A stretch of 64,000 bases of DNA. It comes from a virus. Position numbers and translations under genes: made by a program. Below are positions 24,966 to 54,160 of the stretch, one piece after another. Numbering within the stretch: the stretch's first letter is position 1; each line of letters starts with the position of its first letter. The stretch is from IMG/VR virus record IMGVR_UViG_3300046648_000324, positions 1-64,000 of that record. One strand, given 5' to 3'. Under the pieces are notes generated by a model. The model saw only the letters and a list, made by a program, of their open reading frames with translations. It was not told the origin of the DNA and did not search any database.

Positions 24966-27900
24966 TGGGAATCCTGGCCGACATCGACGCCCTGTACGCC
25001 GGCGCGCCCGCCAAACCGGCCGCCCCGCTCGCCCCCGCGCAGCCGTCCGCCTTCAGCCGCGGCCTGCGCGCCGGCGGCGCCGACCTGGCTGGCCAGGCCC
25101 GCGCGCTGCTGGGCCAGGGCGCGGAGCTGCTCGGCGCCGACCAACTCGCCGCCGAGCAGCGCGCGGCATCGGTGGCCGCGCAGCAAGAGGGCGCCAGCAT
25201 CATGGAAGGGCTGCCGCAGAGCTACCACGACGTGCACGGCCTGCGCGATGCCTGGGACTATGCCACCGGCCTGGTCGGCCGCGCCGGTCCGGGGCTGGTG
25301 CCGATGGCCGCCGGCGCCGCCGTCGGCGGCATTCCCGGCATGATCGCGGCCACCATGCCGTCGACCATCGGCGCCCAGTTCGAGGCGCAGCAGGAAGACC
25401 CGGTGGCGGCCGCCAAGCCGGTTGGCGAACGGACCCTGACCGGCGCCGTGGCCGGCGGCGCCGAGGCGGCCGTGATGGGGGTGGTGCCGGGGGTCATGGG
25501 CGGCAAGCTGTTTGCCAAGGCAGCGACCGGGGCCGCGCGCGTGCCGCTGGGCCAGGCGGTGGCCACCAACCTGGGCGAGGCGGTGGTCGGCAATGCGGTG
25601 GCCGGCAACGTCGCGGCGCGCATCGGCCAGGGTGCGGCCGGCGCGCTGAACCCGGCGCGCGACACCAGCCAGGACGAAGCGCAGCAGATGGAAGCCACCG
25701 TCGGCGGCGCCGTGATGGGCGCGCCGTTCGCGGCACTGGGGGTGGCCGGTTCGCGCCGCGCGCCCAAGGCGCCGAAGGAACCCGCGCCGGCCAAGCCGGG
25801 CGCCGCCACGCCGGATGCGCCGGCCACGTTCGAGCAGCAGCTGGCCGGCCTGTCCGCGGCGCTGACGCCGGACCACGTCACCGGGCGCGAGCATGCTGAC
25901 GCCGCGATCGACGGCACCGAGACGCCGGCCACGATGGCCGGGCGCGACGCCGCCGGCGAAGACCAGGCGCGCACCAAGGCCCAGGCCAAGGTCGCCAAGC
26001 TGCTGGCCGACCCCGAGGCGGCGCACCTGCACGCCGAGCTGAACCAGCTGGACCCGGTCACCACCAGCGGCCAGCAGCGCATTGGCGAACTGAACGTGCA
26101 GCACTTCACGGCCCAGAAGCGCAAGGCCGACCTGGCCGCCGACAATGCCACGCTCGACGCCGCTTTGAGGTCCGCGCCGGAGGAAGCGGGGGAGGCGGCC
26201 AAGGACTACTCGGGCGCCGAGGCCAAGGTGTACGACCTGATGGACGGCCCCGAGTGGGCCGACTTCAGCGCCGAAGACAAGCAGGCAGCGGTAGCGCTGC
26301 TGCGCAAGGCGGTCGAGACCGGCGAGCGCACCGGCGAGATCCCGATGCTGCGCGCGGCGCGCACCGTGATGCGCGGCCAGGACCTGGCCGATCGCCTGCT
26401 GCGTGTCTACCACGTGCTCGGTTCGAGCGACCCGGCGCGGCGCGAGCAGTTCTTCGCCGCGTTCGCCAAGATGAACGCGCACATCAAGCGCGACGATGGC
26501 CTGCGCTACGCGGTCAAGAGCGCGCTGCCCCAACACCTGCGCGGGATCGGCGACGATCAGGTCGACGCGTTCATCGACGGCATGAAGGCGGTCTCGGGCG
26601 AAAACCTGAGCAAGTCGATGGGCGCCAACGAGATGAAGGTGGCCAAGACCCGCATCGACGACCACCTGTTCGACATCTTCGGTGACAAGGCCGAGGGCCT
26701 GATCGGGGCGTTCGCCAAGCACGCCCAGGACAGCGAGGAACTGGTGCCCGCGGGGCTGGAGGAAAAGGCCAAGCTCAAGTCGGCCGCCGACGAACACGCC
26801 GAGGGCGACGAGGCGAACCCCGCAGTCGAGGGCTCCGGCGAGGGCGCCGCCCCACGGCGCGAGGGGGTCGAAGCCGACACCGACAACGGCGACGTGCACA
26901 TCTACTACGGGCGCAAGCCGGACGCCAAGGACCGCTCGCCGTTCGTGCTGAACGACGCGGCGCACGCCAAGCTGTACCCGCACGACAGCGACGCGACGCG
27001 CCCGCAGAGCAAGCGCATGGCCAGGGCGGCGGCCGAGAACCCGGTGCCGCCCGACCCGTACGCCGAAGACCCGGGCGCGCCGCCGCGCAACGTGCGCTGG
27101 ATGGGCGCGCGCGAGTTCGCCGAGCTGCACGGGATGGATCAGGAGCAACTGGCGCGCCACACCGGCGGCAAGCCGGACGACTACGGGCTGGCCGTGGTGC
27201 GCGTGCCCAAGCAGGACGAGTTCAGCTTGTCCGACGCCGACCTCGACGGCATGCGCTTCGGCCGCCACACCATGGCGACCGACCCGGTCACCGGCAAGCA
27301 GGTCGAGAAGCACACGGCCCCGGCGTCGGGCTGGCTCAAGAGCGAAAAGGCGCGCGAGACCGCGTTCGAGGTGGGCGAGCACCTGTTCGATGCCACCCGC
27401 GTGGCGTCGTACATGGCGCGCTCGGATGGCCACGGCAAGGGCATCGCGTTTTCCGCCGCCGACGACGCGCACGGCAAGACCTACCGCACCGCGCGCGCGT
27501 TCGCCGAGGGCATCGCGGCGCTGTCGATCAAGCTGGGGCGCCAGATCGAGGTGCCCGAGCACGTGATCGTGGAGCGCGCCAAGGGCGGCCGCCCGGCGCT
27601 GACCTGGGGCGACCTGCAGGACGTGCTGAAGGACGGCACGGCCAGCGCCGCGCGCGCGCTGGCGCCGCTGCGCAACGAGCGCGACAGCCTGTACGCCGAC
27701 CGCGCCAAGGCGGTGGGCGACAAGGCGCAGGCCGCGTTCGCCGACGCGATCGAGGACGTCAACGCGCGCATCGCGCAGGTGCGCAAGGCGCACGGCATGG
27801 ACCGCGAAGCGTTCGATGGCAGCGACAGCACCACCGCCGAGCTGCAAGCCAAGCTGTCGGACCGGCAGGTCGAACTCGAGCGCTCGCAGGAGGCGCAGGC

Positions 27901-30900
27901 CCGGCTCGAGGCGAAGGCCTCGCGCAGCAAGCAGGAAGAGAAAAACCTGGCCTACCACCGCCGCCAGGTCGCGTTCCTGCAGCCGATGGTCGCCTCGCTC
28001 ACCCACACGCTCGAGCAGCGCGCCAACGCCGCCACCTTCAACGAGGCCAAGCTCGGCAGCGAGCACGGCACCGGGCGCGACATCGGCGAGGGGATCGACC
28101 TGCGCCGCGAACAGCTGCGCGCGGCCGAAGCGGGCGCGGCGCAGTACCAGCACCTGCTCGAGCAGCTCAACGCCCACAAGCCCGGCTCGCCCGGCGAGGG
28201 CGCGGTCTGGGCCCGCGAGCGCGAGCGGGTCAAGGCCCAGATCAAGACCAGCTTCAGCCGGACCCCGCGCGACGAGGTCATGGCCAGCAAGCCGTACCGC
28301 CGGATGGAAGGCTACCTGCGCATCGTCGAGAAGCGCGACCGCGCCCAGATCGAGGCGCTGCGCGAGCGCGCGCTGGCCGCCGCCGACGCCAGCGGCAAGA
28401 CGTTCGAGACAGTCGACGGCAAGCCGGTGGTGGCGGCGGCGCGCCGCGGCGAGGACGCCGCCGGCAACCAGGCCCCCGCGCTCGACGCCAGCGGCAAACC
28501 AGTGACCGCTGAAAAACGCCGCGAGACCACCTGGCGCAAGGCGGTCGGTGGCGACGACAGCGGGCTCGGCATCTCCGAAGCCGACCCGCTGGGCAACGTG
28601 CACCACGCCGCAGCCGAGCACGGCACCGAGGACAACCCCGACGCGCTGGGCGAGGTGGCGAGCAAGGTGCGCCAGAAGGCCGGCGAATACACCGAGCCGA
28701 CCGAGCCGCGCGACCTGGCGCCGGTCCTCCCCGAGGCGCGCTGGGCAGCGCTGAACGCGCTGCCCGCCACGCTGCCGAAGAACCTGGGCGCGGCGCTGCG
28801 CGCGCTGATCGACAACGCCGGGATCCTGAGCAAGGCGCACCGCAAGGAATTCGACAAGCTGATCGGCGACGACGGCAAGCCGCGCGACCAGGCCGCGCTG
28901 CGCGCCACCGTCAAGGACCTGGTCGGCAAGTACCGCACCAGCCCGTCCTGGTCGAGCACGGGCGAGCACGCGTTCGCCAATATCGCCAGCGAGGGCGGGC
29001 CGGTGCACGCGGCGATCCTGAAGAAGGTGGCCAAGAGCGAGGATGCGCGCGAGCTGCACACGGCGCTGCTGGACCTGCTGGGGAGCAAGAACCCGAACGA
29101 GCACAAGGCCAGGGTGATCGACGCCATGACCGCCCGCATCGGCGAGCTGATGGCCGAGTACCCAGACACCGGCTATGCGCTGCAGCTGAAGAGCGCGCAG
29201 GAAACCGGCGGCATGCTGACCCCGGCCCAGCAGGCGTTCGCCGACAAGGTGGGCAAGGGCGGGGTGACCTCCAGGCGCACCGTCGACGGCATGCGCACCA
29301 GCGACGACGTGGCAGCGCTGCAGCGGGCCCAGCGCGCGCTGGCCGGCGCCGACCCCGACAACGTGCACGTGGCGCGCGCGCTGGGCGTGATCGAAGACCG
29401 GCTGGCGGCGCTGGAGGGGAAGACCGCGGCCAAGCCGGCCACGGCCAAGCCCGAGCCCGAGGGCACCATGTACAGCCTGGAGTCGACCCGCGTGCATGAC
29501 GAGCTGGAGCGCGACGGCTTCGCCGCCACCCACGACTCGCCGATCCGCCACGATGGCACGTTCAACTGGCGCGCGCACGAGGGCAACGGCGAAGGCAACG
29601 ACGTGTACGGCGCCGGCACCTACCTGTCCACCGCGGAGGAGGTGCATCAGGGCTACAAGAAGCAGTTCACGCGCGCCATCAAGGGCGACGGCTTGATCAA
29701 TAACCCGCACTATCGGGGGCTGCAGGAGCAGCTGGCCGCGCTGCGCTGGGAAGACAAGACCCCGGCCAACGAGCGCAAGGCCGCCGCGCTGCGGGCGGAG
29801 ATGAAGGCGTTCGAGGACCGCTACAAGATCAGCGGGCTGAACGCCGACAAGTCGCCCACCTACCACGTCTCGGTCGACGTCCCGAGGGAGCATCTGATGA
29901 GCTGGGACTATCCGATCTCGAGGCAGAGCGCGTATGTGCAGCAGGCGCTCGCGCGGGGCGCCAAAATGCTCGACGACCCGGACCAGTACCCGCTGCCGAA
30001 GGGCATGCAATTGCGTTCGTTCGATGGCAAGCCGGGCGACGCGCTGCGCAACCGTTTCGGTGCCGAGGTGTACCGCGACCTGGCCATGCTGCTCGGCTCG
30101 AACCGCGACGCGTCCGAGTACCTGCAGTCGCTCGGCATTCCCGGCCACGAATACGCGTCCGACGGCGGCGCCGACTTGGATAGGCCGAACTTCGTCATCT
30201 ACGACGACAGCAGGATCCGCACCAACTACACCGAGCTCTCGCGCGAGCGCCAGGGCACGGCCGCATCAAGCGCCGCCGCCCAGCAGGCGGTGCACGACTA
30301 CGTCAACCGGGTCACCGGCGGCGCGGTCGACGTCAACGCCGCCGCCCAGCTGCTGTACGCCGGCTCCTACCTGAAGGGCGGCAAGGACGCCGCCGGGGTC
30401 GACTACCGGCCGGTGATCAACGTCTCGGTGCATGCGCTCAACCCGCTGTCGACCGCCTACCACGAGTCGCTGCACTGGTTCGCCGACCACCTGCGCCAGC
30501 ACGGCGAGCCGGCGGTGATGGCGGCGCTGACCCGCGCGGCCGACTCGGCCTACGTGCGCAACTTCCTGCGCAACAAGTTCCGCGACCAGCCCGACGCCTT
30601 GAAGCAGGTCGAGGGCGCCAGCGAGGAGCGGGTCGCCTACATGTACCAGTTCCACCGCAACGGCGAGCTGCAGCTGGGCACGCGCGCCAAGACCATCCTC
30701 GACCGCATCGGCGAGCTGGTCAACCGGGTGCTGGGGGTGTGGAGCAACGACGCGCGCGCGCTGCACATCATGGACTACTTCGGCTCCGGCCAGTACGCGC
30801 GCGAGTTCGGCGGCGGCCCGGTGCGCCCCGGCGCGGCGGCAGCGGCGCACAAGGCGATGATGGAAGTCGGGCGCAACAAGACGCTGGACCGGCTGCACGC

Positions 30901-32986
30901 GAATTTCAAGCCGCTGCTCGACGTCGCCACCGCGGCCGCCGGGATCGGCTCGGCGCGGATCCGCGACATGGGGATCCCGGCGCTGACCAAGATCGCCGAC
31001 CTGGTGCGCCTGCACGACACCAAGGAAGGGGTCGACCCCGGCTACCTGCCGGCGGCCGGCATCGCGCGCCGCGCCTTCGGCCAGCAGCTGGTCAAGGCGA
31101 TGGGCGACTTCACCGCCGAGCAGGCCAACGCGGCGATGGCCGCGATCGCGCAGGACCTGACGCCGGTCGACGCCCACCAGGCGCGCCTGATGAGCGCGAT
31201 GCGGCGCACCATGGGCGACGTCCACGCCTACATGCGCGAGGCCGGGGTGCGCATCGGCGCGCGCGGCCTGAACGGCATCAACGGCAGCAGCTACGCGCCG
31301 CGGGTGTGGGACCCGGGCGCGATCGCCGGCCACCAGGACGCGTTCCGCGCGATGATCCAGAAGTACATCGACAGCGGCGACTTCATCGGCTCGGCCGACG
31401 CCCTGATGACGCGCCTGATGCGCGACGAGGGCACCGAGATCGAGCCGGGCACGGTGGCCGGCCCCGGCGACCAGCACGCCAAGACGCGCGAACTGCACTT
31501 CATCACGGCCGCCGACGCGGCGCCGTTTGTCGAGAAGGACGCGCTGCGGATCCTGACCTCGTACATCGCCCAGGGCACCCGGCGCGCCGAGTGGTCGCGC
31601 CGGTTCGAGGCGATGAGCGCGGCCGAGCGGCGCCACTTCGAGACCTTGACCCCGTACGCGCAGCGCCAGTTCGAGCTCGAGCGCGAGCGGCCGCTGGCCA
31701 TGCTCAAGCGCAACGCGGTCGAGCAGGGCGCGACCCCCGACCAGATCAAGCAGCTGGACCGCTACCTGGAGGGCGTCACCGGCCAGCTGGGGCGCGACGT
31801 CAGGCCGGCCACGCGCCGCCTGTTCGCCCAGGTGATGGTGTACCAGAACCTGCGCCTGCTGCCGCTGGGGTTCTTCTCGACCCTGATCGACCCGGTCGGG
31901 GTCAAGGTGCGCGGCGGCACCCTGGGCGACGTGTTCAACAATTTCAAGCGCGGCATCCTGGAAATCCCGCGCGGCTTCCAGAACAACCCGAAGAGCGACG
32001 CCGGCTACCGCTTCGCCGAGGACCTGGGCGTCATCGACTCGGCCGTGCTGCAGCACGTGATGGGCGCCTCGTACGGCCTGGGCGCGGCCGGCAACCGCAC
32101 CCGCGCGCTGAACGAGGCGGTGTTCAAGTGGAACCTGATGGACCAGATGAACACGTCGCAGCGGGTCGGCGCCACCGAGGCCGCGCTGCGCTTCCTGCTG
32201 CGCCACCGCGACGGCGACGCCAGCGAGCACTCGTTGCGCTACCTGGGCGAGCTGGGCCTGAAGCCGGCCGACATCAAGGTCGTTGGCAGCGGGCGCGACG
32301 CCCGGGTCGCGGTGCGCCCCGAGGACTTCAGCGCGGCCGGCTACACCGAGGCGGCCGCGCTGGCCGCGCACCTGAAGATGCGCCAGGCCGTCAACCGCTG
32401 GGTCGACGGCGCGATCCTGCGCCCCGACCAGAGCAACAAGGCGATCTGGATGAACGACCCGATGTACGCGCTGGTCGCGCACATGAAGCAGTTCTCGTTC
32501 GCGTTCCAGGACACGATCCTGAAACGCGTGCTGCACGAGGCGCGCCACGGCAACTACCAGCCGGCGGCGGCGCTGGCCGGCTACATCCCGGTGATGCTGG
32601 CGGCCGACCTGGCGCGCGGCGCGATCCAGGGCGGCGGTTCGCAGCCGGACTGGAAGCAGGGCTGGGACCTGGGCGACTATCTGGCCAACGCAATCCAGCG
32701 CGCCGGCCTGTTCGGGGTCGGCCAGTTCGCGCTGGACGCGGTCAAGGAAGTGCGCCACGGCCACACCGGGATCGGCGCGCTGGGCGGGCCGACGGTGGCG
32801 CAGCTGGCCCAGGTCGTGGCCACCGTCGGCGGCCAGCGCAGTCTGGCGGCGACCACGATCGACGCGATGCCGGCCAACGCGCTGTGGAGCGGCTACCTGC
32901 CCGGCACCACCCGCAGCCACAGCCTGGGCCATGACGGCGACTCGACCGAGTACAGCCCGACCGAGCCGATGCAGATCGACGACTGA
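24965..32986 (+). CDS. Giant polyvalent ejected protein (ART-like and HExxH segments)
   Basis: 2,673 residues. Residues about 95-260 contain Gly/Ala hydrophobic stretches (GLVPMAAGAAVGGIPGMIAA) like those of membrane-active ejected proteins. About 880-1,100 is coiled coil. About 1,500-1,760 resembles the ADP-ribosyltransferase-like domain of phage polyvalent proteins (VYGAGTYLS, YHVSVDVPREHLMSWDYPIS, SLGIPGHEYASDGG, NFVIYDDSRIRTN). HESLHWFADH (His1833) is an HExxH metallopeptidase-like motif. The remaining C-terminus is helical. No RNA polymerase motifs found. Probably packaged and injected; activities are inferred. Confidence 0.8.
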   Translation: MGILADIDALYAGAPAKPAAPLAPAQPSAFSRGLRAGGADLAGQARALLGQGAELLGADQLAAEQRAASVAAQQEGASIMEGLPQSYHDVHGLRDAWDYATGLVGRAGPGLVPMAAGAAVGGIPGMIAATMPSTIGAQFEAQQEDPVAAAKPVGERTLTGAVAGGAEAAVMGVVPGVMGGKLFAKAATGAARVPLGQAVATNLGEAVVGNAVAGNVAARIGQGAAGALNPARDTSQDEAQQMEATVGGAVMGAPFAALGVAGSRRAPKAPKEPAPAKPGAATPDAPATFEQQLAGLSAALTPDHVTGREHADAAIDGTETPATMAGRDAAGEDQARTKAQAKVAKLLADPEAAHLHAELNQLDPVTTSGQQRIGELNVQHFTAQKRKADLAADNATLDAALRSAPEEAGEAAKDYSGAEAKVYDLMDGPEWADFSAEDKQAAVALLRKAVETGERTGEIPMLRAARTVMRGQDLADRLLRVYHVLGSSDPARREQFFAAFAKMNAHIKRDDGLRYAVKSALPQHLRGIGDDQVDAFIDGMKAVSGENLSKSMGANEMKVAKTRIDDHLFDIFGDKAEGLIGAFAKHAQDSEELVPAGLEEKAKLKSAADEHAEGDEANPAVEGSGEGAAPRREGVEADTDNGDVHIYYGRKPDAKDRSPFVLNDAAHAKLYPHDSDATRPQSKRMARAAAENPVPPDPYAEDPGAPPRNVRWMGAREFAELHGMDQEQLARHTGGKPDDYGLAVVRVPKQDEFSLSDADLDGMRFGRHTMATDPVTGKQVEKHTAPASGWLKSEKARETAFEVGEHLFDATRVASYMARSDGHGKGIAFSAADDAHGKTYRTARAFAEGIAALSIKLGRQIEVPEHVIVERAKGGRPALTWGDLQDVLKDGTASAARALAPLRNERDSLYADRAKAVGDKAQAAFADAIEDVNARIAQVRKAHGMDREAFDGSDSTTAELQAKLSDRQVELERSQEAQARLEAKASRSKQEEKNLAYHRRQVAFLQPMVASLTHTLEQRANAATFNEAKLGSEHGTGRDIGEGIDLRREQLRAAEAGAAQYQHLLEQLNAHKPGSPGEGAVWARERERVKAQIKTSFSRTPRDEVMASKPYRRMEGYLRIVEKRDRAQIEALRERALAAADASGKTFETVDGKPVVAAARRGEDAAGNQAPALDASGKPVTAEKRRETTWRKAVGGDDSGLGISEADPLGNVHHAAAEHGTEDNPDALGEVASKVRQKAGEYTEPTEPRDLAPVLPEARWAALNALPATLPKNLGAALRALIDNAGILSKAHRKEFDKLIGDDGKPRDQAALRATVKDLVGKYRTSPSWSSTGEHAFANIASEGGPVHAAILKKVAKSEDARELHTALLDLLGSKNPNEHKARVIDAMTARIGELMAEYPDTGYALQLKSAQETGGMLTPAQQAFADKVGKGGVTSRRTVDGMRTSDDVAALQRAQRALAGADPDNVHVARALGVIEDRLAALEGKTAAKPATAKPEPEGTMYSLESTRVHDELERDGFAATHDSPIRHDGTFNWRAHEGNGEGNDVYGAGTYLSTAEEVHQGYKKQFTRAIKGDGLINNPHYRGLQEQLAALRWEDKTPANERKAAALRAEMKAFEDRYKISGLNADKSPTYHVSVDVPREHLMSWDYPISRQSAYVQQALARGAKMLDDPDQYPLPKGMQLRSFDGKPGDALRNRFGAEVYRDLAMLLGSNRDASEYLQSLGIPGHEYASDGGADLDRPNFVIYDDSRIRTNYTELSRERQGTAASSAAAQQAVHDYVNRVTGGAVDVNAAAQLLYAGSYLKGGKDAAGVDYRPVINVSVHALNPLSTAYHESLHWFADHLRQHGEPAVMAALTRAADSAYVRNFLRNKFRDQPDALKQVEGASEERVAYMYQFHRNGELQLGTRAKTILDRIGELVNRVLGVWSNDARALHIMDYFGSGQYAREFGGGPVRPGAAAAAHKAMMEVGRNKTLDRLHANFKPLLDVATAAAGIGSARIRDMGIPALTKIADLVRLHDTKEGVDPGYLPAAGIARRAFGQQLVKAMGDFTAEQANAAMAAIAQDLTPVDAHQARLMSAMRRTMGDVHAYMREAGVRIGARGLNGINGSSYAPRVWDPGAIAGHQDAFRAMIQKYIDSGDFIGSADALMTRLMRDEGTEIEPGTVAGPGDQHAKTRELHFITAADAAPFVEKDALRILTSYIAQGTRRAEWSRRFEAMSAAERRHFETLTPYAQRQFELERERPLAMLKRNAVEQGATPDQIKQLDRYLEGVTGQLGRDVRPATRRLFAQVMVYQNLRLLPLGFFSTLIDPVGVKVRGGTLGDVFNNFKRGILEIPRGFQNNPKSDAGYRFAEDLGVIDSAVLQHVMGASYGLGAAGNRTRALNEAVFKWNLMDQMNTSQRVGATEAALRFLLRHRDGDASEHSLRYLGELGLKPADIKVVGSGRDARVAVRPEDFSAAGYTEAAALAAHLKMRQAVNRWVDGAILRPDQSNKAIWMNDPMYALVAHMKQFSFAFQDTILKRVLHEARHGNYQPAAALAGYIPVMLAADLARGAIQGGGSQPDWKQGWDLGDYLANAIQRAGLFGVGQFALDAVKEVRHGHTGIGALGGPTVAQLAQVVATVGGQRSLAATTIDAMPANALWSGYLPGTTRSHSLGHDGDSTEYSPTEPMQIDD

Positions 32987-33045: not shown

Positions 33046-33192
33046 CGGGATGCGCCAGCTCGCCACCACCAGCATGACGATCAGCGCCGCTGCTGCCCAG
33101 CCATAATCGCCATCGCTGGCCCAGCGCCAGAAATCCACGCCATTGGCCAGCCCGAGCGCCCACTGCAGGCACAGCAGTTGGCGGCGCGACAT
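33025..33192 (-). CDS. 55-residue membrane protein
   Basis: The frame begins MSRRQLLCLQWALGLANGVD and contains a membrane helix (AAAALIVMLVVASW, about residues 33-46), then a short basic tail. Its start forms ATGA with the XRE regulator stop. The stop codon lies inside the terminator hairpin, so translation to the end would interfere with hairpin folding. No family recognised. Confidence 0.55.
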   Translation of the reverse strand: MSRRQLLCLQWALGLANGVDFWRWASDGDYGWAAAALIVMLVVASWRIPPARPGA

Positions 33193-33413
33193 CAGGACGG
33201 CTCCGCGTCGAACTTCTCGAACTTCACCACGATCCGATAGCCCAGGATTTCCGCTATCTCCGTCGCCAGCACGTCTGTCAGGGATTGGTTCTGCTTCTCG
33301 ATATTGGTGATGCTGGTGCGCGTCAAGCCCACCGACTCGGCCAGCGCGCCCTGTGTCATGCCCTTCATTTTGCGCAGCGCCCTGATCGTCGGGCCGAGTG
33401 TATTCTTCTTCAT
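33192..33413 (-). CDS. XRE-family DNA-binding regulator
   Basis: 73 residues. One helix-turn-helix domain: LGPTIRALRKMKGMTQGALA then ESVGLTRTSITNIEKQNQ, with a short C-terminal extension (LGYRIVVKFEKFDAEPS). Start at 33,413 chosen because it forms ATGA with the upstream stop; a longer in-frame start at 33,440 would overlap that gene. Candidate lysogeny or copy-control repressor by size and place near RepL, but its targets are unknown. Confidence 0.85.
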   Translation of the reverse strand: MKKNTLGPTIRALRKMKGMTQGALAESVGLTRTSITNIEKQNQSLTDVLATEIAEILGYRIVVKFEKFDAEPS

Positions 33414-33673
33414 CAGGATGGCTCCGCCTCGACCGGCCACAGGCGCTGGAAACCGTCGCTGCGGCGGTAGGCCTTGGCGGTCAGGTCATACACCATGTTG
33501 CCCGGCGCCAGCGCCAGGTAGGTGCGGATGTCGAGCGACGCCTGCGGCATCGACAGCGCGAAGTAATCCATGATCGTGGCCCGGTTGATGTGGCCGTAGT
33601 TGGCCAGCAGGCACTCGATGAATTGCAGGCGCTGTAGCAGCGCCGGGCGCAGGGTGGATAGGTCGGGGGTCAC
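33413..33673 (-). CDS. Small winged-helix protein, paralogue 1
   Basis: 86 residues from a GTG start in a GTGA overlap. LLQRLQFIECLLANYGHINR, TIMDYFALSMPQASLDIRTY and APGNMVYDLTAKAYRR form an HTH domain like the N-terminus of WYL/DeoR-type regulators. The rightward gene at 36,854 encodes a clear paralogue (LLDYYGSVARAEVMDFCGIG...APGNMWLDHATKRYLR). Probable DNA-binding regulator or partition accessory. Confidence 0.75.
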   Translation of the reverse strand: MTPDLSTLRPALLQRLQFIECLLANYGHINRATIMDYFALSMPQASLDIRTYLALAPGNMVYDLTAKAYRRSDGFQRLWPVEAEPS

Positions 33674-33882
33674 GGGGACGCTCTCACAGGGGTTGGCAAC
33701 GGCGCCATGCGCGCGATGAAGTCGGCCACGGTGCGGTAGTACAGCACGCCGCTGTGGATGTCGCGGTACACCAGCAGCGCCTCGGCGTCCCGTGAGGTGC
33801 CGGCGCCCAGCGCCGAGCCGAGCAGCTCGTAGGCGCCGCCCTTGCCGCTGCAGGTCCAGTGGGTGATCGGGGGCAGGCTCAT
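33670..33882 (-). CDS. DUF1653-like small protein
   Basis: 70 residues. CSGKGGAYELLGSALGAGTS, ALLVYRDIHSGVLYYRTVAD and FIARM resemble the DUF1653 beta fold (KGGxYEVLG...VYRxxxG). Start chosen at the ATGA overlap; a longer frame from 33,939 would overlap the previous gene. Function unknown. Confidence 0.7.
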   Translation of the reverse strand: MSLPPITHWTCSGKGGAYELLGSALGAGTSRDAEALLVYRDIHSGVLYYRTVADFIARMAPLPTPVRASP

Positions 33883-34139
33883 GGGGTGGGCTCCGCGCTG
33901 CGCGGCTGCGATTCGATGTCGATCAGGTGCCGGATCCACTGCTGGGCGCCGGCCTTGGTCAGGTGGGCGCTATCGGGGTCGCGCGCGACCCAGTCTGGCC
34001 AGCAGCCGTGCCAGCCGCTCAGCTGCATGTAGGCGCGCATGGCGCCGACCGACTTGTCGCCGCCGTTCTGGTAGTACAGCAGGAATGCGCGCAGTGCGCG
34101 GTTCTCGCCGTCGTCGTCGAGCAGGTCGCGGGGGCTCAT
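33879..34139 (-). CDS. Conserved small phage protein
   Basis: 86 residues (MSPRDLLDDDGENRALRAFL...MQLSGWHGCWPDWV...HLTKAGAQQWIRHLIDIE). Helical, Trp-rich centre. Coupled by ATGA to RepL upstream and to the DUF1653-like gene downstream, so it belongs to the repL operon. Not recognised. Confidence 0.7.
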   Translation of the reverse strand: MSPRDLLDDDGENRALRAFLLYYQNGGDKSVGAMRAYMQLSGWHGCWPDWVARDPDSAHLTKAGAQQWIRHLIDIESQPRSAEPTP

Positions 34140-34663
34140 TTGAACATCCGTTCCTGGCCGGCCACCTCGAGCAGCTCGCGCGATTTCTGGTCGGCGCCGC
34201 CCTCGAGCACCTGCAGTTCGACCTGGCGCCCGCCGTCGGCCGAGTATTGGGTGACCATGCGGAACACCGCGCGCCGTTCGCGGATCTGCTTCCACTCGCC
34301 CTTGGCGAACAGGAACGGGTCGAGCTCGTAGTCGCCGCGCCCCAGCTTCTTCAGCAGCCCGGCCTTGACGCAGGCGCCGATCGCGTTCTCGACGCTCTTG
34401 GGCTGCTGGCCGACGGTGGCCGCGATGCGCTGCTTGCGGCCCGAGGTCAGGCTGACGATCCCCTCGTAGTCGACGCTGGCCGCGATGTACAGCAGGATTT
34501 CCTGGTGCCCGGCCTGGATGTTGAAAAAGCGCGCGACGTCCTGCACGTACAGCTTGATGTACTCGGGCTCCCTGGCCATCGGCTTTAAGGCCGGGTCGCC
34601 GATGTCGAGCGGTTTGCCGGTGGCGATATCGGTGACGCTGCTCTTGCGGACGGCCTTGCTCAT
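34136..34663 (-). CDS. repL: RepL-type replication protein
   Basis: 175 residues after GAGGAAC. The pattern KLYVQDVARFFNIQAGHQEI, LLYIAASVDYEGIVSLTSGR, RIAATVGQQPKSVENAIGAC and LKKLGRGDYELDPFLFAKGE matches RepL plasmid/phage replication initiators: a winged helix followed by the family's LxPxLFxKGxW motif. Probably starts replication at DNA within or next to its gene. Lies downstream of a hairpin-rich leader (34,700-34,900). Leads the operon ending in the XRE regulator. Confidence 0.8.
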   Translation of the reverse strand: MSKAVRKSSVTDIATGKPLDIGDPALKPMAREPEYIKLYVQDVARFFNIQAGHQEILLYIAASVDYEGIVSLTSGRKQRIAATVGQQPKSVENAIGACVKAGLLKKLGRGDYELDPFLFAKGEWKQIRERRAVFRMVTQYSADGGRQVELQVLEGGADQKSRELLEVAGQERMFK

Positions 34664-34735
34664 CGGGGTTCCTCGCAGGTGTGGTGACGGCTGTCAATAT
34701 TATCACCGAGTAATCCCCCAACGCTAGGGGGGTGA

Positions 34736-34886
34736 CCCCCTGCAGCCAGGGGGTGTTTTTTAACAGAATTGTGAAAATCCACGTCAAATGCCCCCTGTTT
34801 CCAGGGGGCGACCTAGCCCTGGAATAATGGGTGTTGTCGGGAATCCCGACCCCCTGGATTGGGGAAGGAAACCCCCCAATCCAGGG
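34736..34886. repeat. Three CCCCCTG/CAGGGGG-type inverted repeats upstream of repL
   Basis: Perfect inverted repeats: 34,736-34,742 with 34,747-34,753; 34,790-34,797 with 34,802-34,809; and a 13-base one, 34,852-34,864 with 34,874-34,886. All contain CCCTG or CCCTGG and pair with CAGGG. A G-run at 34,727-34,732 could pair alternatively with the first arm. On the plus strand the first hairpin is followed by TTTTTT (34,756-34,761), a terminator. Iterons, operators or a RepL leader attenuator are possible. Confidence 0.7.
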
Positions 34887-34998
34887 AAGAAATCGGGCAT
34901 ACGCCCTTATACTTACTGGGCTCCTGACATCTCTTCTATACACGTTAACTATGCTATATCTCAGGGCTGTTTCCGTGGCTCGCGGCCTGACGCGCTTG

Positions 34999-35053
34999 CG
35001 CTTGTCGGCTCACCGATTTGCTGCGCAAACCGGCAAGCGGCGTTTTTTTTTTT
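34999..35053 (+). terminator. Rightward terminator with 11-T tract, no gene upstream
   Basis: CGCTTGTCGG (34,999-35,008) pairs with CCGGCAAGCG (35,030-35,039; one T-G wobble), enclosing TTTGC-tgc-GCAAA; GCG and eleven T residues follow. No rightward gene precedes it, so it may end a small RNA that starts in the AT-rich island at about 34,900-34,960. Confidence 0.55.
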
Positions 35054-35315
35054 ATTTACCAGCTGTCGCTTTTTGGCACAAGGCCCTCGGCCTGCAGGCA
35101 ACGGCAACGCGTGCAGACCTGCGGGGACGCGCCAGCGCGCCGGTTTCTCGCTTTAGCGGCGTGGCCCGTCCAGGGCCATCCCCGGCCTGCGCGGCGGTCC
35201 TCCAGACCGGCCGCCCCGCGGCGCCGAGGTTCCACGGACACCTTCTCCCTATGGGCGCAGCCCATCACTTCATGCTCGCCCTCATCCTATGGGCGCGCGC
35301 CCATCACTTTTTGGG
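35054..35315. other. Gene-free gap with two ATGGGCGC palindromes
   Basis: I see no convincing gene. Near the end lie ATGGGCGCAGCCCAT (35,251-35,265) and ATGGGCGCGCGCCCAT (35,289-35,304), each preceded by CT and followed by CACTT, a direct repeat of palindromes. They lie just downstream of the leftward gene ending at 35,316, so they may act as terminators or protein sites. Confidence 0.5.
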
Positions 35316-35636
35316 TCAGGGGTCGACCGTCTCGCTGCCGTCCGGCGCGCGCCGGCGCCCGGTCATCGGGTCCTTGTGCCAGCCCTGCGGCTCGGTGCCG
35401 GCGGCGCCGTCCCACGCGTCGAGCGCCGCCTTGGCGGCCGCGTAGTCGTGGTAGCACCAGCGCCGCGCGTAGCCGAGCGGCTCCATGTCGGCCAGGATCG
35501 CGTGGGTGAACAGGAAGCGGGCGATGCCGCAGATGCCGGCGTCGCCCTTGGGCGCGACGTCGTGGTAGAGGCCCTCGCCGCGCTCGACGATCAGGGCGAT
35601 CAGGGCGGCGGTGGCGGGGTCGGTGGGGGTGCTCAT
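35316..35636 (-). CDS. Conserved phage protein (ArgArgTrp-CysTyrHis type)
   Basis: 106 residues. LGYARRWCYHDYAAAKAALD, WDGAAGTEPQGWHKDPMTGR and RRAPDG form a signature seen in many phage proteins of unknown function. Start at 35,636 follows GGAG; the longer frame from 35,669 lacks a site. Last gene of a short leftward unit. Confidence 0.75.
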   Translation of the reverse strand: MSTPTDPATAALIALIVERGEGLYHDVAPKGDAGICGIARFLFTHAILADMEPLGYARRWCYHDYAAAKAALDAWDGAAGTEPQGWHKDPMTGRRRAPDGSETVDP

Positions 35637-35679
35637 GGCGGGGCTCCTTGAAACGGCGCAGGGTAGCACGGCGCTGCGC

Positions 35680-35925
35680 TCAGGCGCGCGCCGCAGCCAG
35701 CCGGCTGGCGAACACCAGCCGCAGCGCCTGCGCGCACAGCTCGTCGCGGGCGGCGGCCTGGGCCCGTGCCAGCACGAATGCGCGCGCGGCGGCGTCGGTG
35801 GTGAAGATGTTGGAAGCGTCGTCGCGCAGGACCTCGAGCAGCAGCCGGCCGTCCCACACCTCGGCCAGCAGCCAGCCCTGGCCCCGTGCTTTTTTTGCCT
35901 GCTCCGCGTTCCAGTCCTGTATCAT
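35680..35925 (-). CDS. Small protein divergent from the par cluster
   Basis: 81 residues (MIQDWNAEQAKKARGQGWLL...EVWDGRLLLEVLRDDASNIF). GGAGGCGCC precedes the ATG. Divergently oriented from the rightward par-like cluster, sharing its 72-base promoter region. Helical C-terminus rich in Ala/Arg. Not recognised. Confidence 0.7.
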   Translation of the reverse strand: MIQDWNAEQAKKARGQGWLLAEVWDGRLLLEVLRDDASNIFTTDAAARAFVLARAQAAARDELCAQALRLVFASRLAAARA

Positions 35926-35941
35926 GGCGCCTCCGTGTGAT

Positions 35942-35993
35942 GGTATGCAGCAGCATACCGCATCCGGTACCCCGATACATACCTGACTACCAA
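35942..35993 (+). promoter_or_regulatory. TACC-rich operator/centromere candidate before the par cluster
   Basis: GGTATGC-agca-GCATACC is a perfect 7-base inverted repeat (35,942-35,959), followed by CCGGTACC, CATACC and CTACC units. The site lies between divergent genes and just upstream of parA, where type Ib par loci keep the operator/centromere bound by their RHH protein. It shares its GTACC/TACC core with the dispersed elements elsewhere. Confidence 0.45.
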
Positions 35994-35997
35994 CGAC

Positions 35998-36192
35998 ATG
36001 AACTTCTCACTCGAACTGACCTGTGACAACGCGGCGTTCGGCCCCACCTTCGAGGATGCGACGGCCGAGATCGCGCGGATCCTGCGCCTGGCCGCGGTCG
36101 CGGTGGACGCTGCCAACGTGCCGCAGCGGCGCACCGCCTACAACCTGCGCGACATCAACGGCCACATCGTCGGCACCTGGAGCCTGGCGTGA
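35998..36192 (+). CDS. Small protein, paralogue of 56,946-57,161 product
   Basis: 64 residues (MNFSLELTCDNAAFGPTFED...YNLRDINGHIVGTWSLA). The C-terminal DINGHIVGTWSL and the IARIL helix recur in the leftward protein at 56,946-57,161 (DINGQVAGGWSLT). No Shine-Dalgarno is visible. Its end overlaps the parA start. Function unknown. Confidence 0.65.
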   Translation: MNFSLELTCDNAAFGPTFEDATAEIARILRLAAVAVDAANVPQRRTAYNLRDINGHIVGTWSLA

Positions 36193-36857
36193 TCTACCTG
36201 GTGGGGTCGTCGAAAGGGGGCGCCGGCAAGTCGACCGTGGCGGTCAACCTGGCCGCGCTGCTGGCGTCCCTGCGCGGGCGCGACGTGCTGCTGGTCGACA
36301 CCGACCAGGCCCAGCCCAGCTCGTCCCTGTGGGCCAGCCTGCGCGCGGCGCGGCCGGCGGCGCCGCCGCTGTCGTGCGTGGCGTTCGGCGCGGCCAGCCT
36401 GGGCCACGAAGTGCGGCGCGCGCTGCGCAAGTACGACGACATCGTGCTCGACGCCGGCGGCCACGATTCGGCCGAGCTGCGCGCGGCGCTGCTGGTGGCC
36501 GACGTGGTCTTGATGCCGGTGGCGCCGGCGCTGTTCGACATCGCGGCGATGGCCACCGACAGCAAGCTGCTCGACTTCGCGCGCCAGTTCAACCCGGCGC
36601 TGCGGGCCTTCATCGTGATCAACAACGCCTCGACCCATTCGTTTGAATCGGGCACGCGCGACACGCGCGAGCAGGCGCGCCAGCTGGCGCCGAACTACGC
36701 GATGCTGGACACCGTGCTGCGCCGCCGCGCGACCTATGACAGCGCCAAGCTGGCCGGTCTCGGCGTGGTCGAGCTCGGGGCGCGCGACAAGGCGGCGGAA
36801 CTGGAAATGCGCGCGCTGTTCAACGAGCTAGCGATGGCGCTGCCGGAGGGCGCATGA
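36189..36857 (+). CDS. parA: ParA-family partition ATPase
   Basis: 222 residues, the size of small (type Ib, ParF-like) ParA proteins. Deviant Walker A SKGGAGKST with signature Lys9 and Lys14; LLVDTDQAQPSSS (35-47) is the A-prime motif and DDIVLDAGG (83-91) the Walker B. Would move DNA on the nucleoid with a centromere-binding partner. It lacks an N-terminal HTH, so autoregulation should come from the small DNA-binding proteins encoded next to it. Confidence 0.88.
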   Translation: MIYLVGSSKGGAGKSTVAVNLAALLASLRGRDVLLVDTDQAQPSSSLWASLRAARPAAPPLSCVAFGAASLGHEVRRALRKYDDIVLDAGGHDSAELRAALLVADVVLMPVAPALFDIAAMATDSKLLDFARQFNPALRAFIVINNASTHSFESGTRDTREQARQLAPNYAMLDTVLRRRATYDSAKLAGLGVVELGARDKAAELEMRALFNELAMALPEGA

Positions 36858-37075
36858 ACGGCGCGTTACAGGCGCGGCTGCGCCTGATCGATTTCCTGCT
36901 CGACTACTACGGCTCGGTGGCGCGCGCCGAGGTCATGGACTTCTGCGGCATCGGGCCGGCCCAGGCCTCGCGCGACCTGGCGCTGTACCTGGAACAGGCA
37001 CCGGGCAACATGTGGCTCGACCACGCCACCAAGCGCTATCTGCGCAGCTCCTTCTTCGAGAGGCAATTTCCATGA
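36854..37075 (+). CDS. Small winged-helix protein, paralogue 2
   Basis: 73 residues, ATGA-coupled to parA. LRLIDFLLDYYGSVARAEVM, DFCGIGPAQASRDLALYL and APGNMWLDHATKRYLR align with the leftward protein at 33,413-33,673. A DNA-binding protein within the par-like cluster; it could regulate the cluster or bind partition sites. Confidence 0.75.
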   Translation: MNGALQARLRLIDFLLDYYGSVARAEVMDFCGIGPAQASRDLALYLEQAPGNMWLDHATKRYLRSSFFERQFP

Positions 37076-37299
37076 GCACCAAGCCGAACAAGTTCGCCGC
37101 CGCCGCCGACTTCATCCGCGCCGCGCCGACCGAGGCCGCCAGCGGCGGTGGACGGCGCCCGCCAGCGGCGGACTCGCGCCTGACGGTCAACATCGACCGC
37201 GCGCTGCACCTGCGGGTCAAGCTGTACGCGGTGGCCAACTACACCTCGATCGGCGAACTGATCGAGGAGTGGATCGAGCAGCACGTGCCGCCGGGCTAG
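37072..37299 (+). CDS. Ribbon-helix-helix protein, probable ParG-like partner
   Basis: 75 residues, the same size as ParG. A flexible basic N-terminus (residues 1-38) precedes a ribbon-helix-helix domain: SRLTVNIDRALHLRVKLYAV then ANYTSIGELIEEWIEQHV. That architecture and its place downstream of a ParF-size ParA match centromere-binding/repressor partners of type Ib partition systems. ATGA overlap with the previous gene. Partner role is inferred. Confidence 0.75.
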   Translation: MSTKPNKFAAAADFIRAAPTEAASGGGRRPPAADSRLTVNIDRALHLRVKLYAVANYTSIGELIEEWIEQHVPPG

Positions 37300-39339: not shown

Positions 39340-39735
39340 TTACCCCGGGCGCTGCCTGACCGTGATGGCGAACCCGGGCAGCTCGATGGTGATCACGTCG
39401 TGTTCGGACGTGATCAGGATGTTGGGCTTGTCGACCAGGGTGGTGCGCGCGCCATACACCTGCGGCGTGGCGCCGGCCCCGTGCACCGGCGCCGGGCCCG
39501 GTTCGCGCCAGACGTAGGCCCAGCGCGAACTGTCGCGCGCGTTCTTGGCCGCCGCGACCCGGGTGGCGTGGCCTTTGCGCCACAGCCCCCCCAGGTAGTC
39601 CGACACCCGGTTGGCCGAGTGCGCCAGCGCGCGGACGTCGGCCCGCTCGTACAGCTCGACGCAGGTCAGCGGGTGGTCGGCCGCCTTCAGCAGCTCGCTC
39701 AGCAGCTGGTACAGGCCGGACTCCATCTTGCTCAT
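39340..39735 (-). CDS. Winged-helix-like early protein
   Basis: 131 residues. Residues 1-65 (LYQLLSELLKAADHPLTCVE then LYERADVRALAHSANRVSDY, GGLWRKGHATRV) look like a winged helix with a positively charged wing; the C-terminus is beta-rich. A TCTA-N3-TAGA site lies about 35 bases upstream. Candidate regulator. Confidence 0.65.
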   Translation of the reverse strand: MSKMESGLYQLLSELLKAADHPLTCVELYERADVRALAHSANRVSDYLGGLWRKGHATRVAAAKNARDSSRWAYVWREPGPAPVHGAGATPQVYGARTTLVDKPNILITSEHDVITIELPGFAITVRQRPG

Positions 39736-39938: not shown

Positions 39939-40328
39939 TCAGCTGGTGGCGGCCACCAGCGCCGCCGCCAGCGCCGGGCGCGTCAGCAGGCGCGCGCGGA
40001 ACGCGGCGCAGGTCAGCGCCTGCTCCCACGCCAGGTCGCGCAGCAGCACCCCGCCCTCGCGGCAGCCGACGATCACCGCCAGGTTGCGCCCCTCGGCGTA
40101 GCGGGCCCGGCCCCACTCCAGCTGCAGCGCCGACAGCGCGATTGGCACCAGGGTGGCGGGCCGGACCGGCAGCAGCACGTGCTTGTACTCGACCCACAGG
40201 TCGCGCGCGCCCGAGTACCAGACATCCCAGGTGCCGCCGTGGTACGGGTTGTGCATCTTTTCATGATACAGCCCGCGCGGCAGGTGGCGGTGCAGCGCCT
40301 GGTAAAAGCTGGTCTCGGGCTTGCTCAC
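39939..40328 (-). CDS. VRR-NUC/PD-(D/E)XK-like nuclease
   Basis: 129 residues from a GTG start in a GTGA overlap. ETSFYQALHRHLPRGLYHEK, GGTWDVWYSGARDLWVEYKH contains the catalytic pattern D...ExK (Asp in WDVW, Glu-Tyr-Lys), as in VRR-NUC and related phage endonucleases acting on branched or ends-bearing DNA. Possible role in recombination or host DNA degradation. Followed by a terminator. Confidence 0.7.
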   Translation of the reverse strand: MSKPETSFYQALHRHLPRGLYHEKMHNPYHGGTWDVWYSGARDLWVEYKHVLLPVRPATLVPIALSALQLEWGRARYAEGRNLAVIVGCREGGVLLRDLAWEQALTCAAFRARLLTRPALAAALVAATS

Positions 40329-40570
40329 GGCGCCGCGCGCAGGCGCGCGATCAGCGGCGCCAGCGCCGGGTCGCATAGCGCCTCGGCCGCCAGCAGGCCG
40401 CCGCTGGCCGCGTCCAGCTTGAGCGCGGACAGCACGCTGCAGGGCGCCTTGCCGTTGGCCAGCCGGCTGATCAGCGAGGGCGGCAGGCCGCTGGCGGCGG
40501 CCAGCTGCTGCTGCTTGACGCCGGGGCGCGCCAGGTAGTCGGCCAGGGTCAGCGTCAGCGCCGGGTTCAT
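40325..40570 (-). CDS. Cro/YdaS-like HTH regulator
   Basis: 81 residues. TLADYLARPGVKQQQLAAAS, GLPPSLISRLANGKAPCSV is a compact helix-turn-helix of the Cro/YdaS type. Overlaps both neighbours (ATGA/GTGA), so it is co-expressed with the exonuclease and nuclease. Targets unknown. Confidence 0.8.
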   Translation of the reverse strand: MNPALTLTLADYLARPGVKQQQLAAASGLPPSLISRLANGKAPCSVLSALKLDAASGGLLAAEALCDPALAPLIARLRAAP

Positions 40571-52493: not shown

Positions 52494-52523
52494 CGGGTCC
52501 TCCATCATTGTTCATCAATAAAC

Positions 52524-52552
52524 TTGACACTTGGTAGCTTCTCTCCTACAGT
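52524..52552 (+). promoter_or_regulatory. Strong sigma70 promoter for the lone rightward gene
   Basis: TTGACA (52,524-52,529), 17-base spacer, TACAGT (52,547-52,552). The -35 is consensus. CATCA(A/T)T motifs flank it at about 52,503, 52,513 and 52,569 and might be operator sites for autoregulation or for the divergent leftward promoter. Confidence 0.65.
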
Positions 52553-52594
52553 GGGTCCGGGATGCTCCATCAATGAGATAAACGGGGAACAGCA

Positions 52595-54160
52595 ATGAGC
52601 GATGGGGAACGCAGTGGCCGTGTCTATTGGAGTGAGGAAGAATACCTGGCATTGGCGCGGGCGCTGATTGGCCAGGTCGCGGAGTTTGCCAATGCGCGCA
52701 CCGAGCATGATTTGAACGCGCTGGGGCTGGGGATGTCGCTGTTCAAGAGTACGATGGAGCAGGCGTTGGCGCCGGAACGCCGGCGCGACCTGCGCCACCT
52801 GCGCGGGGTGCGCGCGCCGCTGGTGGCGGCATTTGGCGCGCTGCGCGGCGAGCGCGCGATGACCCCGCGCAAGGTGGCGGTGGCGGTGTCCAAGCCGCCG
52901 GCCGAGCCGGTGCACTGGACCGAGCGCGAATGGGAGCAGTTTGCCACCAAGGTCGCCGCGCTGCAGCCGGAGCTGGACCGCACCACGCTGGCCGGCCTGT
53001 CGCTGCGCGCGCTCAACGCGGCCGGGGCCGCGATGGGGCGCCGCCGCGAGTTCCGCGCGCTCGGGCTGGCCAGGAAGGGGCTGCTGCCGGCGTTCGCGCG
53101 GCTGGCGGCGCCGGCGCGCTTCCAGCGGGCGCCGGCGCCGGCAGAACCGGTGCTGTATGTCAAGCCGGAAGCCCCGGCAGCTGAAGCGGAGGAAGCGGCG
53201 GCACCGGAAGCGGGGCCGGACGCGGCGCCAGGCGCGCCGGCCGCCGACGCCAAGCCGAACCTGTGGGCGCGCATCACCTGGAGCCGCGACGAGTGGCTGG
53301 TCGTGGCGGCCGAGCTGCACCGGATGTTCCCGGCCCAGAACTACCCGGCGCGCGAACAGCTGGTCGGGATCAACAGCCAGGACGTGGCGTTCGCCCAGCG
53401 CGTGCTGCCGCTGGCGCGCCAGCGGCGGGCGCTGAAGCTGGTGTCGATGACCCAGATGCGGCCGCAGCTGCAGCAGGCATTCCGCACGCTGGCGGCGCAC
53501 CTGGCGGCCGACGCCGCCCATGCGGCCGAGGCGGCGGCAGCGCCGGCCCCGCCGGTGGCAGGGGCAGCGCCGGCGCCGGCGGCCGAAGCGGCGCCCGCCG
53601 CATTCCCAACCTATATTCCCAGCGAGCCGGGCGCCGCGCCCGACCCGTACCGGGCCGCGTTCGCGCCGCTGGTGGCGCTGCTGGCGGGCGCGGTCGGCGA
53701 CCAGGTGGTCGACCGGTTGAAACCGCTGATTACCCAGCTGCTGGCCGAGGCGCTGGGGGCGCCGGCCGCTGGTGCACTGGGCGCGGGGCAGGCGACGCTG
53801 GCGCCGGCCAGCCTGGCGGCGAGCGCGGTGGCCGGGCCGGCGCCCGCGCCCGAACGGCGCGCGGCGCCCAGGAAGCCGAGCGTCGGCGTGTTCACCAACC
53901 GGCTCGACCCGTGGCGCCAGGAATTGCCGGTGGCGTTCCCGGGGATCGAGTTCACCGTGATCGACACCCCCAAGAAGATCGACGCCATCGCCCGCTGCGA
54001 CAAGGTGGTGGCGATGACCCGCTTCGTCGGCCATGCCGGTTTCGACAAGGCCAAGCGCGCCGGCGGCGAGCGGTTCGTGCCGTGCGACGGCGCCATGACC
54101 GAACTGAAGCGCCTGATCGGGCTTTTGGTGACCAGCGGCGCGCTGGCGGCGGCGGCTTAG
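52595..54160 (+). CDS. Three-repeat protein with DUF2325-like C-terminal domain
   Basis: 521 residues after GGGGAACAG. Three related helical repeats: 10-83 (VYWSEEEYLALARAL...), 106-170 (VHWTEREWEQFATKV...) and 227-301 (ITWSRDEWLVVAAEL...), each starting W[ST]xxEa and ending with xxAFxxL. Pro/Ala linkers separate them. Residues 428-512 (SVGVFTNRLDPWRQELPVAF, IDAIARCDKVVAMTRFVGHA, ERFVPCDGAMTELKRLIGLL) resemble a DUF2325-type domain. Sole rightward gene in the early region, with its own promoter. Perhaps a regulator or moron; function unknown. Confidence 0.75.
   Translation: MSDGERSGRVYWSEEEYLALARALIGQVAEFANARTEHDLNALGLGMSLFKSTMEQALAPERRRDLRHLRGVRAPLVAAFGALRGERAMTPRKVAVAVSKPPAEPVHWTEREWEQFATKVAALQPELDRTTLAGLSLRALNAAGAAMGRRREFRALGLARKGLLPAFARLAAPARFQRAPAPAEPVLYVKPEAPAAEAEEAAAPEAGPDAAPGAPAADAKPNLWARITWSRDEWLVVAAELHRMFPAQNYPAREQLVGINSQDVAFAQRVLPLARQRRALKLVSMTQMRPQLQQAFRTLAAHLAADAAHAAEAAAAPAPPVAGAAPAPAAEAAPAAFPTYIPSEPGAAPDPYRAAFAPLVALLAGAVGDQVVDRLKPLITQLLAEALGAPAAGALGAGQATLAPASLAASAVAGPAPAPERRAAPRKPSVGVFTNRLDPWRQELPVAFPGIEFTVIDTPKKIDAIARCDKVVAMTRFVGHAGFDKAKRAGGERFVPCDGAMTELKRLIGLLVTSGALAAAA

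Follow-up and report, generated by a model that had tools for sequence, protein, structure and literature searches.

A phage-plasmid is a temperate dsDNA phage, typically without an integrase, that replicates episomally (PMC12977533). Among known systems, one close comparison for the locus discussed here is with Burkholderia phage KS14, a temperate phage of the Burkholderiales whose prophage was demonstrated by experiment to be a plasmid (PMC3091744). The two are alike in having a ParF-size ParA (38% identical) with an initiator gene nearby, but in KS14 the virion genes are P2-like, the initiator is of RepB type, a serine recombinase gene is present and no CapW-type winged helix is annotated beside parA. 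In the P1-like Escherichia phage D6 there is likewise a small gene after that for a ParA-like protein (31% identical), but D6 has a P1-type backbone with adjoining StbA-type partition genes and a circular genome of 91 kb. Homologues of the RepL protein described below, at 27-37% identity, are found in Sodalis phage phiSG1, where no ParA is annotated over the region examined, and in small enterobacterial and Aeromonas plasmids, for which no partition genes are listed.

The partition genes themselves are like those of the ParF-ParG type Ib systems in that there is a ParF-type ATPase, a small downstream ribbon-helix-helix (RHH) gene and a candidate site upstream. They differ in having an extra winged-helix gene between ParA and RHH, and in that the RHH protein is weakly ParG-like. 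The candidates for type Ib centromere repeats are one conserved 18-bp palindrome upstream of parA, and tandem hairpins farther upstream. The extra gene shares its winged-helix domain, with the DNA-contact positions conserved, with the CapW and BrxR regulators, but is in a plasmid maintenance operon and not in a defence island.

The DNA is a viral contig of 70.4 kb, and by the window we mean its first 64,000 nucleotides, which had been the subject of a sequence-only reading. That reading proposed a RepL-type initiator, a ParA, a winged-helix protein, an RHH protein and an XRE regulator, all of which are present where it placed them, and codon composition is coding-like for every ORF that it named. 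Its word "prophage" was not an observation. The ends of the record overlap by 149 bp, giving a circle that is unbroken at the rep/par locus; such an overlap is also compatible with circularly permuted or terminally redundant virion DNA. There are packaging and structural genes (terminases, major head protein, head closure and virion proteins), and for many of the small genes no family was identified. No close terminase relative (at least 60% identity) was found in PLSDB. The virus is probably a temperate podovirus and its host probably one of the Oxalobacteraceae.

The putative par operon starts with a 64-aa ORF (35998-36192, plus strand), followed on the same strand by parA (36189-36857, GTG start), a 73-aa winged-helix protein (36854-37075) and the RHH protein (37072-37299). 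Each gene overlaps the next by 4 nt, which indicates that the four are one operon. ParA has 222 aa with no N-terminal HTH, matches PHROG 164 ("ParA-like partition protein") with an E value of 1e-36 and, with a ParA alignment as query, has as its best solved relative ParF (4dzz), in a full-length match (E 4e-31). It groups with partition ATPases and with the ParAs of known phage-plasmids, KS14 and D6 being among its closest phage relatives, so the suggestion that it is a ParF-size partition ATPase holds, with no sign of clustering in a non-partition family. For the RHH gene the proposed position stands but assignment to ParG remains weak, with E values of 0.014 for PF09274, below the cut-off, and 0.25 for 1p94; the protein is best seen as a candidate centromere-binding, ParG-like protein, and its AlphaFold model (pLDDT 63) was too poor for a fold search. 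Upstream of the operon is the 18-bp palindrome (35942-35959), GGTATGC-AGCA-GCATACC, a candidate operator or centromere. The closest relative with a par operon, contig G001, has GGTACGC-ATCC-GCGTACC in the same place with the same arm and spacer sizes; a palindrome of this kind occurs in about 2-4% of shuffles. Gene order, overlaps and upstream palindrome are all kept in G001, where the 64-aa ORF is 56%, the winged-helix protein 61-62% and the RHH protein 69% identical, and conservation of the operon at 56-69% protein identity implies that it is under selection.

The RepL-side cluster lies to the left and is on the minus strand. It comprises an XRE/HTH_3 regulator (33192-33440; PF01381, E 3e-10), a second winged-helix protein (33413-33673), a small protein of phrog_12584 (33670-33939; E 3e-15) and the RepL-type initiator (34136-34663). 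Relatives of the XRE regulator, 56-58% identical, are found in contigs L144 and L147, both of which also have RepL and the structured element discussed below. The RepL claim was borne out by homology to plasmid RepL proteins (alignment A7), with 37% identity over 82% of the length (E 2e-28) to RepL-annotated proteins of 3.4-5-kb plasmids, but not by profile comparison with PF05732, where the score of 14.3 bits is under the Pfam curated cut-off of 20.3. PF05732 was also silent in the search of the genome itself, and the identity of RepL thus rests on its plasmid relatives. A single-sequence AlphaFold model of RepL (pLDDT 49) was too poor for a fold search. On the repL 5' side there is an A+T-richer and hairpin-rich intergenic stretch (34690-34900, with inverted repeats I1, I4 and I7), which is a candidate origin region.

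RepL is absent from every other record of the 34-record lineage and was not found in G001, although that record is incomplete, and a peptide-pattern search of viral contigs gave no RepL relatives. With the metagenomic source of the contig, the lack of a lineage counterpart is what might suggest an assembly chimera of plasmid and phage. We consider this extremely improbable, as the genes on both flanks are syntenic with those of relatives, and G001 has the same operon in the same place.

With regard to integration, the sequence-only reading had found no integrase in the window and advised a search of the rest of the genome. We found no tyrosine integrase or serine recombinase (resolvase) in the whole record, including the 6.4 kb beyond the window, and a PHROGs scan of the predicted proteins gave no integrase and no transposase. 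No tRNA genes were found. Some elements without an integrase, CTX phage for example, integrate through the recombinase of the host, and with so many small genes of no family one could suppose an integrating prophage that uses host XerCD or an unrecognised recombinase, with ParA as an accessory. This is very unlikely, as there is no dif-like site within 3 mismatches of the dif consensus in the first 64 kb, no tyrosine or serine recombinase and no attachment core like that of an integrated relative, and the record is uninterrupted at the locus.

The comparison with relatives in the lineage is the strongest evidence for a plasmid state, since it tests the proposal independently and might have gone against it. 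A tyrosine integrase is present in 16 of the 34 lineage records and ParA in 4, with none having both; this mutual exclusivity is only modestly significant (one-sided Fisher test, P 0.043 for the 18 records of at least 58 kb and 0.066 for all 34, the records being related). Synteny shows that integrase and par cassettes share one interval, between the giant virion gene and the point, near the 39340-39735 homologue, where the replication block begins. Integrase-bearing relatives are integrated in host contigs of 136.6 and 144 kb (Herminiimonas and Janthinobacterium), flanked by direct repeats of 15 and 14 bp with the integrase at one end, and their attachment site is at the position taken by the par operon in the present genome. 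A small gene (35680-35925, minus strand) has homologues next to the right attachment repeat in these prophages, on its inner side (52% identity in Herminiimonas and 48% in Janthinobacterium). In G031 and G032 a second, distant ParA cassette is found in the same interval, of ParA-RHH-HTH type in G031.

These data also bear on whether the phage could be strictly virulent, with RepL as a lytic initiator and ParA, RHH and winged-helix proteins as acquired regulators or passengers. The closest cultured relatives by terminase (45% identity) are the KPP25-like Pseudomonas phages KPP25 and phiR18 (Kochitakasuvirus), at least one relative among them being described as lytic (PMC13340246). The genome encodes its own polymerase, helicase and primase, and integrase and ParA are both missing from four lineage members that are near-complete, so that a virulent life is possible in the lineage. 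However, selection on the par operon, its location at the site of the lysogeny cassette of relatives and the appearance of a second par cassette at that same locus make a virulent life an unlikely explanation here.

We conclude that this is very probably a temperate podovirus that persists in the host cell as a circular plasmid of low copy number, that is a phage-plasmid, as the sequence-only reading had suggested. It combines phage structural and packaging genes with plasmid replication and partition genes and has no integrase, and the RepL and ParA homologies and the replacement of integrase by par point the same way. In the proposed mechanism RepL would fire an origin within the intergenic region on its 5' side, and ParA would distribute copies to daughter cells together with the RHH protein, its partner that binds the centromere. 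The integrase and attachment site that most of the lineage has in this interval have here given way to the plasmid maintenance kit.

The winged helix between ParA and RHH had been flagged as unusual, and can now be identified as a stand-alone DNA-binding domain of CapW/BrxR type. It is 45% identical to the 86-aa copy beside the XRE regulator. A profile of alignment A1, which includes that copy, matches CapW/BrxR (7tb5/7tb6) with an E value of 4e-18, and the positions equivalent to CapW Arg32 and Ser47, both required for DNA binding by CapW, are invariant among the aligned winged-helix proteins. Both proteins lack the WYL and WCX domains, and by domain content they are relatives of CapW/BrxR and not CapW/BrxR proper. 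Most likely the copy in the par operon binds the 18-bp palindrome and represses the operon.

Between repL and parA there are two conserved elements, both on the plus strand. The first is a hairpin block (ACCGATTTGCTGCGCAAACCGGCA, 34987-35038), 89% identical to that in L147 and also present in L144, L146, L148 and plasmid 2b (L153). The second is a structured noncoding element of about 200 nt (35114-35316; 170 bits with covariance model R1), comprising a junction and two tandem hairpins, CTATGGGC..GCCCATCACTT twice, 38 bp apart (35249-35309). Compensatory changes affect 11 of 46 pairs among 5 sequences and 20 of 46 among 10, and there is no match in Rfam. It recurs elsewhere: beside rep/par genes of further contigs, near inovirus-like prophage genes, and on a plasmid of Massilia. 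A plain terminator is a weakened reading of the tandem hairpins, because their flanks (CTAT...CACTT) are conserved and T-runs are missing in several copies. Three further matches were set aside: that in L151 is a chance pattern match to coding sequence, that in plasmid 2b falls short of significance (E 0.19), and that in G248/L156 is weak and resembles coding sequence. A distant DNA search of phage records for the element gave none; a covariance search of 399 Burkholderiales genomes also gave nothing, but with 5 candidates scored per genome and no positive control it carries little weight. We tentatively suggest, at somewhat less than even probability, that the element represents a type of structured nucleic acid not described before, which serves extrachromosomal replication or copy control and moves with the stand-alone CapW-type winged helices, within the Oxalobacteraceae, between phage-plasmids, plasmids and filamentous phages. 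It might be a regulatory RNA, or it might form hairpins in single-stranded DNA at which priming or strand initiation takes place.

The locus reveals a structured element outside all Rfam families, and connects the DNA-binding domain of the defence regulators CapW and BrxR with plasmid maintenance. Within this one phage lineage the choice between integration and a plasmid state appears to be set by the occupant of a single interval of a few kb. The closely related integrating members, with TerL 81-82% identical, are natural controls, and a switch between chromosomal and plasmid lysogeny is directly testable by cassette exchange.

The window covers bases 1-64000 of a viral contig 70,400 bases long. 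Head, packaging and virion genes of a phage occupy the plus strand of this record at 1.2-33 kb; the minus strand has a replication block at 39-69 kb that includes DNA polymerase, helicase, exonucleases and primase. Judged by terminase, the cultured phages closest to it are the KPP25-like Pseudomonas podoviruses (45% identity). The RepL/ParA stretch sits between the two blocks. Its minus-strand genes are for an XRE regulator, a small winged-helix protein, a small unknown protein and RepL, and on the plus strand there is a four-gene operon for a 64-aa ORF, ParA, a second winged helix and a ribbon-helix-helix (RHH) protein, with a 4-nt overlap at each junction. The sequence-only reading had proposed a phage-plasmid from this cluster and the lack of an integrase; every ORF that it named at the locus was confirmed, and the RepL and par cluster is as it described. 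The two ends of the record overlap by 149 bp, the 4 mismatches lying close to one tip; the contig can therefore be closed to a length of about 70.25 kb, with the lifestyle locus internal and intact. This overlap fits a plasmid circle, and also permuted or terminally redundant virion DNA. Elsewhere, 52505-54160 has a pair of long ORFs (509 and 521 aa) that overlap on opposite strands and match none of the families searched; the minus-strand ORF was not found in the ten relatives compared.

By homology RepL is a predicted plasmid-type initiator: in a tblastn search of plasmids, 82% of the protein aligned at 37% identity (E 2e-28) with RepL-type proteins encoded on 3.4-5-kb plasmids from Aeromonas, Arsenophonus and Klebsiella. 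There are weaker phage matches, for example to Sodalis phiSG1. The name RepL is thus upheld by homology to the plasmid proteins, although the score against the Pfam RepL profile is under the cut-off. RepL is absent as assembled from G001, the closest relative with the par operon, the record of which is incomplete. ParA matches PHROG 164 (E 1e-36) and an NCBI partition ATPase model (E 1e-39, yet below the model's strict cut-off), and its full-length alignment with ParF 4dzz (E 4e-31) bears out the ParF type first suggested from its size. Its best phage relatives are in Dfl-JY14, KS14, FLC5 and D6, and for KS14 plasmid preparations from lysogens have demonstrated that the prophage is a plasmid (PMC3091744). 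For the proposed ParG-type partner the RHH gene is indeed present, but its product has weak likeness to ParG.

The terminase scan gave 80 loci of this lineage, and whole-record gene searches covered 33 of them and the present record. Among these 34 records a tyrosine integrase was found in 16 and ParA in four (the present record, G001, G031 and G032), never both, and none had a serine recombinase. The present record, a ParA carrier, has no integrase over its whole length, as had been claimed for the window. The significance of this exclusivity is modest (one-sided Fisher P 0.043 among the 18 records that reach 58 kb, 0.066 for all 34), and the records are related to one another. Four near-complete members have neither gene and may be virulent. 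The principle of integrase or par is already known, as glacier phage groups are reported to have integrase in some members and ParA/ParB in others (PMC4490671).

The position of the cassettes says more than the co-occurrence count. In the relatives compared, the giant virion gene (24965-32986 here) closes the conserved structural genes, and the replication block begins at the homologue of 39340-39735, or of 39939-40376 if the former was not found. Between these borders lies an integrase in four relatives (G010, G027, G006 and G016) and a par cassette in the present record, G001 and G031. The 2673-residue product of the giant gene has no Pfam match, and its likeness to phage virion families is confined to the C-terminal third. 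The G031 cassette (L104 5037-6402), with a ParA 27% identical, a 67-aa RHH-like protein and a 173-aa HTH_36 protein, was probably acquired separately at the same locus. Contigs of 136.6 and 144 kb, from Herminiimonas sp. CN and a Janthinobacterium MAG, contain integrated relatives whose terminase identity is 81-82%. These prophages are bounded by direct repeats of 15 bp (46,017 and 112,967) and 14 bp (43,313 and 110,713), which by themselves are near chance length yet coincide with the limits of the phage genes; in Herminiimonas a tRNA-Thr adjoins the right repeat. At the left end is the integrase and just within the right end the homologue of 35680-35925, and thus on a circular map attachment site and integrase occupy the place of the par operon, which here adjoins 35680-35925. 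With the par cassette at the integrase locus of its relatives, we consider it very probable that this is a phage-plasmid; an Oxalobacteraceae host is inferred from the relatives only.

The 73-aa winged helix of the operon corresponds to the N-terminal domain of CapW/BrxR (E 4e-18) but lacks the WYL and WCX domains of those regulators; a second copy is on the RepL side. Equivalents of CapW Arg32 and Ser47 are invariant in four relatives, three of which also retain Gln45, and mutating Arg32, or Ser47 within a triple mutant, abolishes DNA binding by CapW (PMC9122588). In their own promoters CapW and BrxR bind palindromic sites some 20 bp long. A palindrome, GGTATGC-AGCA-GCATACC, lies 38 bp upstream of the par operon, and G001 has GGTACGC-ATCC-GCGTACC at the same position, a compensated change. 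The winged helix may therefore repress its own operon through this candidate site, although the RHH protein could be what binds there instead. Single-domain genes of this type recur in contigs bearing the element described below, with two in tandem at L147 2232-2686, and Stenotrophomonas phage Sonora encodes a protein, annotated as hypothetical (L002 7986-8213), that has about 50% identity to the stand-alone winged helix of the window.

Between repL and the par operon is an undescribed structured element (35114-35316, plus strand), noncoding, covarying and with no match in Rfam, accompanied by a further block at 34987-35038. G001 has it too, and the nine other relatives compared do not; copies outside the window are at L102 2436-2641 and in L144, L147, L148 and L152. 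The fold from five sequences has 46 pairs, 11 with both sides changed, against a shuffle mean of 6.2 (0 of 500 shuffles reaching 11) and 0-3 for a slid partner strand. With ten sequences there are 20 such pairs, in an alignment made to the model and hence biased towards it. A scan for the tandem hairpins (CTATGGGC..GCCCATCACTT) found four contigs besides the present record and G001, namely G331-G334, all labelled viral in IMG/VR. Three encode ParA, three have stand-alone CapW-type winged helices, and directly upstream of the element is a RepL-like protein in two and another initiator-like protein in one. None of the four matches Terminase_6N, so some may be plasmids, possibly including G332 (L146, 101 kb), where what look by eye like genes for an ABC exporter of the peptidase type and a membrane-fusion partner adjoin ParA. 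The first part of the element, with the tandem hairpins missing, is present in two copies on a Massilia putida plasmid of 78 kb. In two Oxalobacteraceae genomes (L157, about 8400-8635, and L158) it lies downstream of genes resembling Zot and secretin, which marks the surroundings as inovirus-like prophages; the family search covered one of the two genomes. One of these two genomic copies is near the apparent 3' end of a tRNA gene. Being spread over plasmids, phage-plasmids and filamentous phages, the element may act in replication of extrachromosomal DNA, for example as a single-strand initiation site or copy-control RNA.

Phage-plasmids are a known kind of system, and what is new here is the lineage, the par operon with a winged-helix gene and the structured element.
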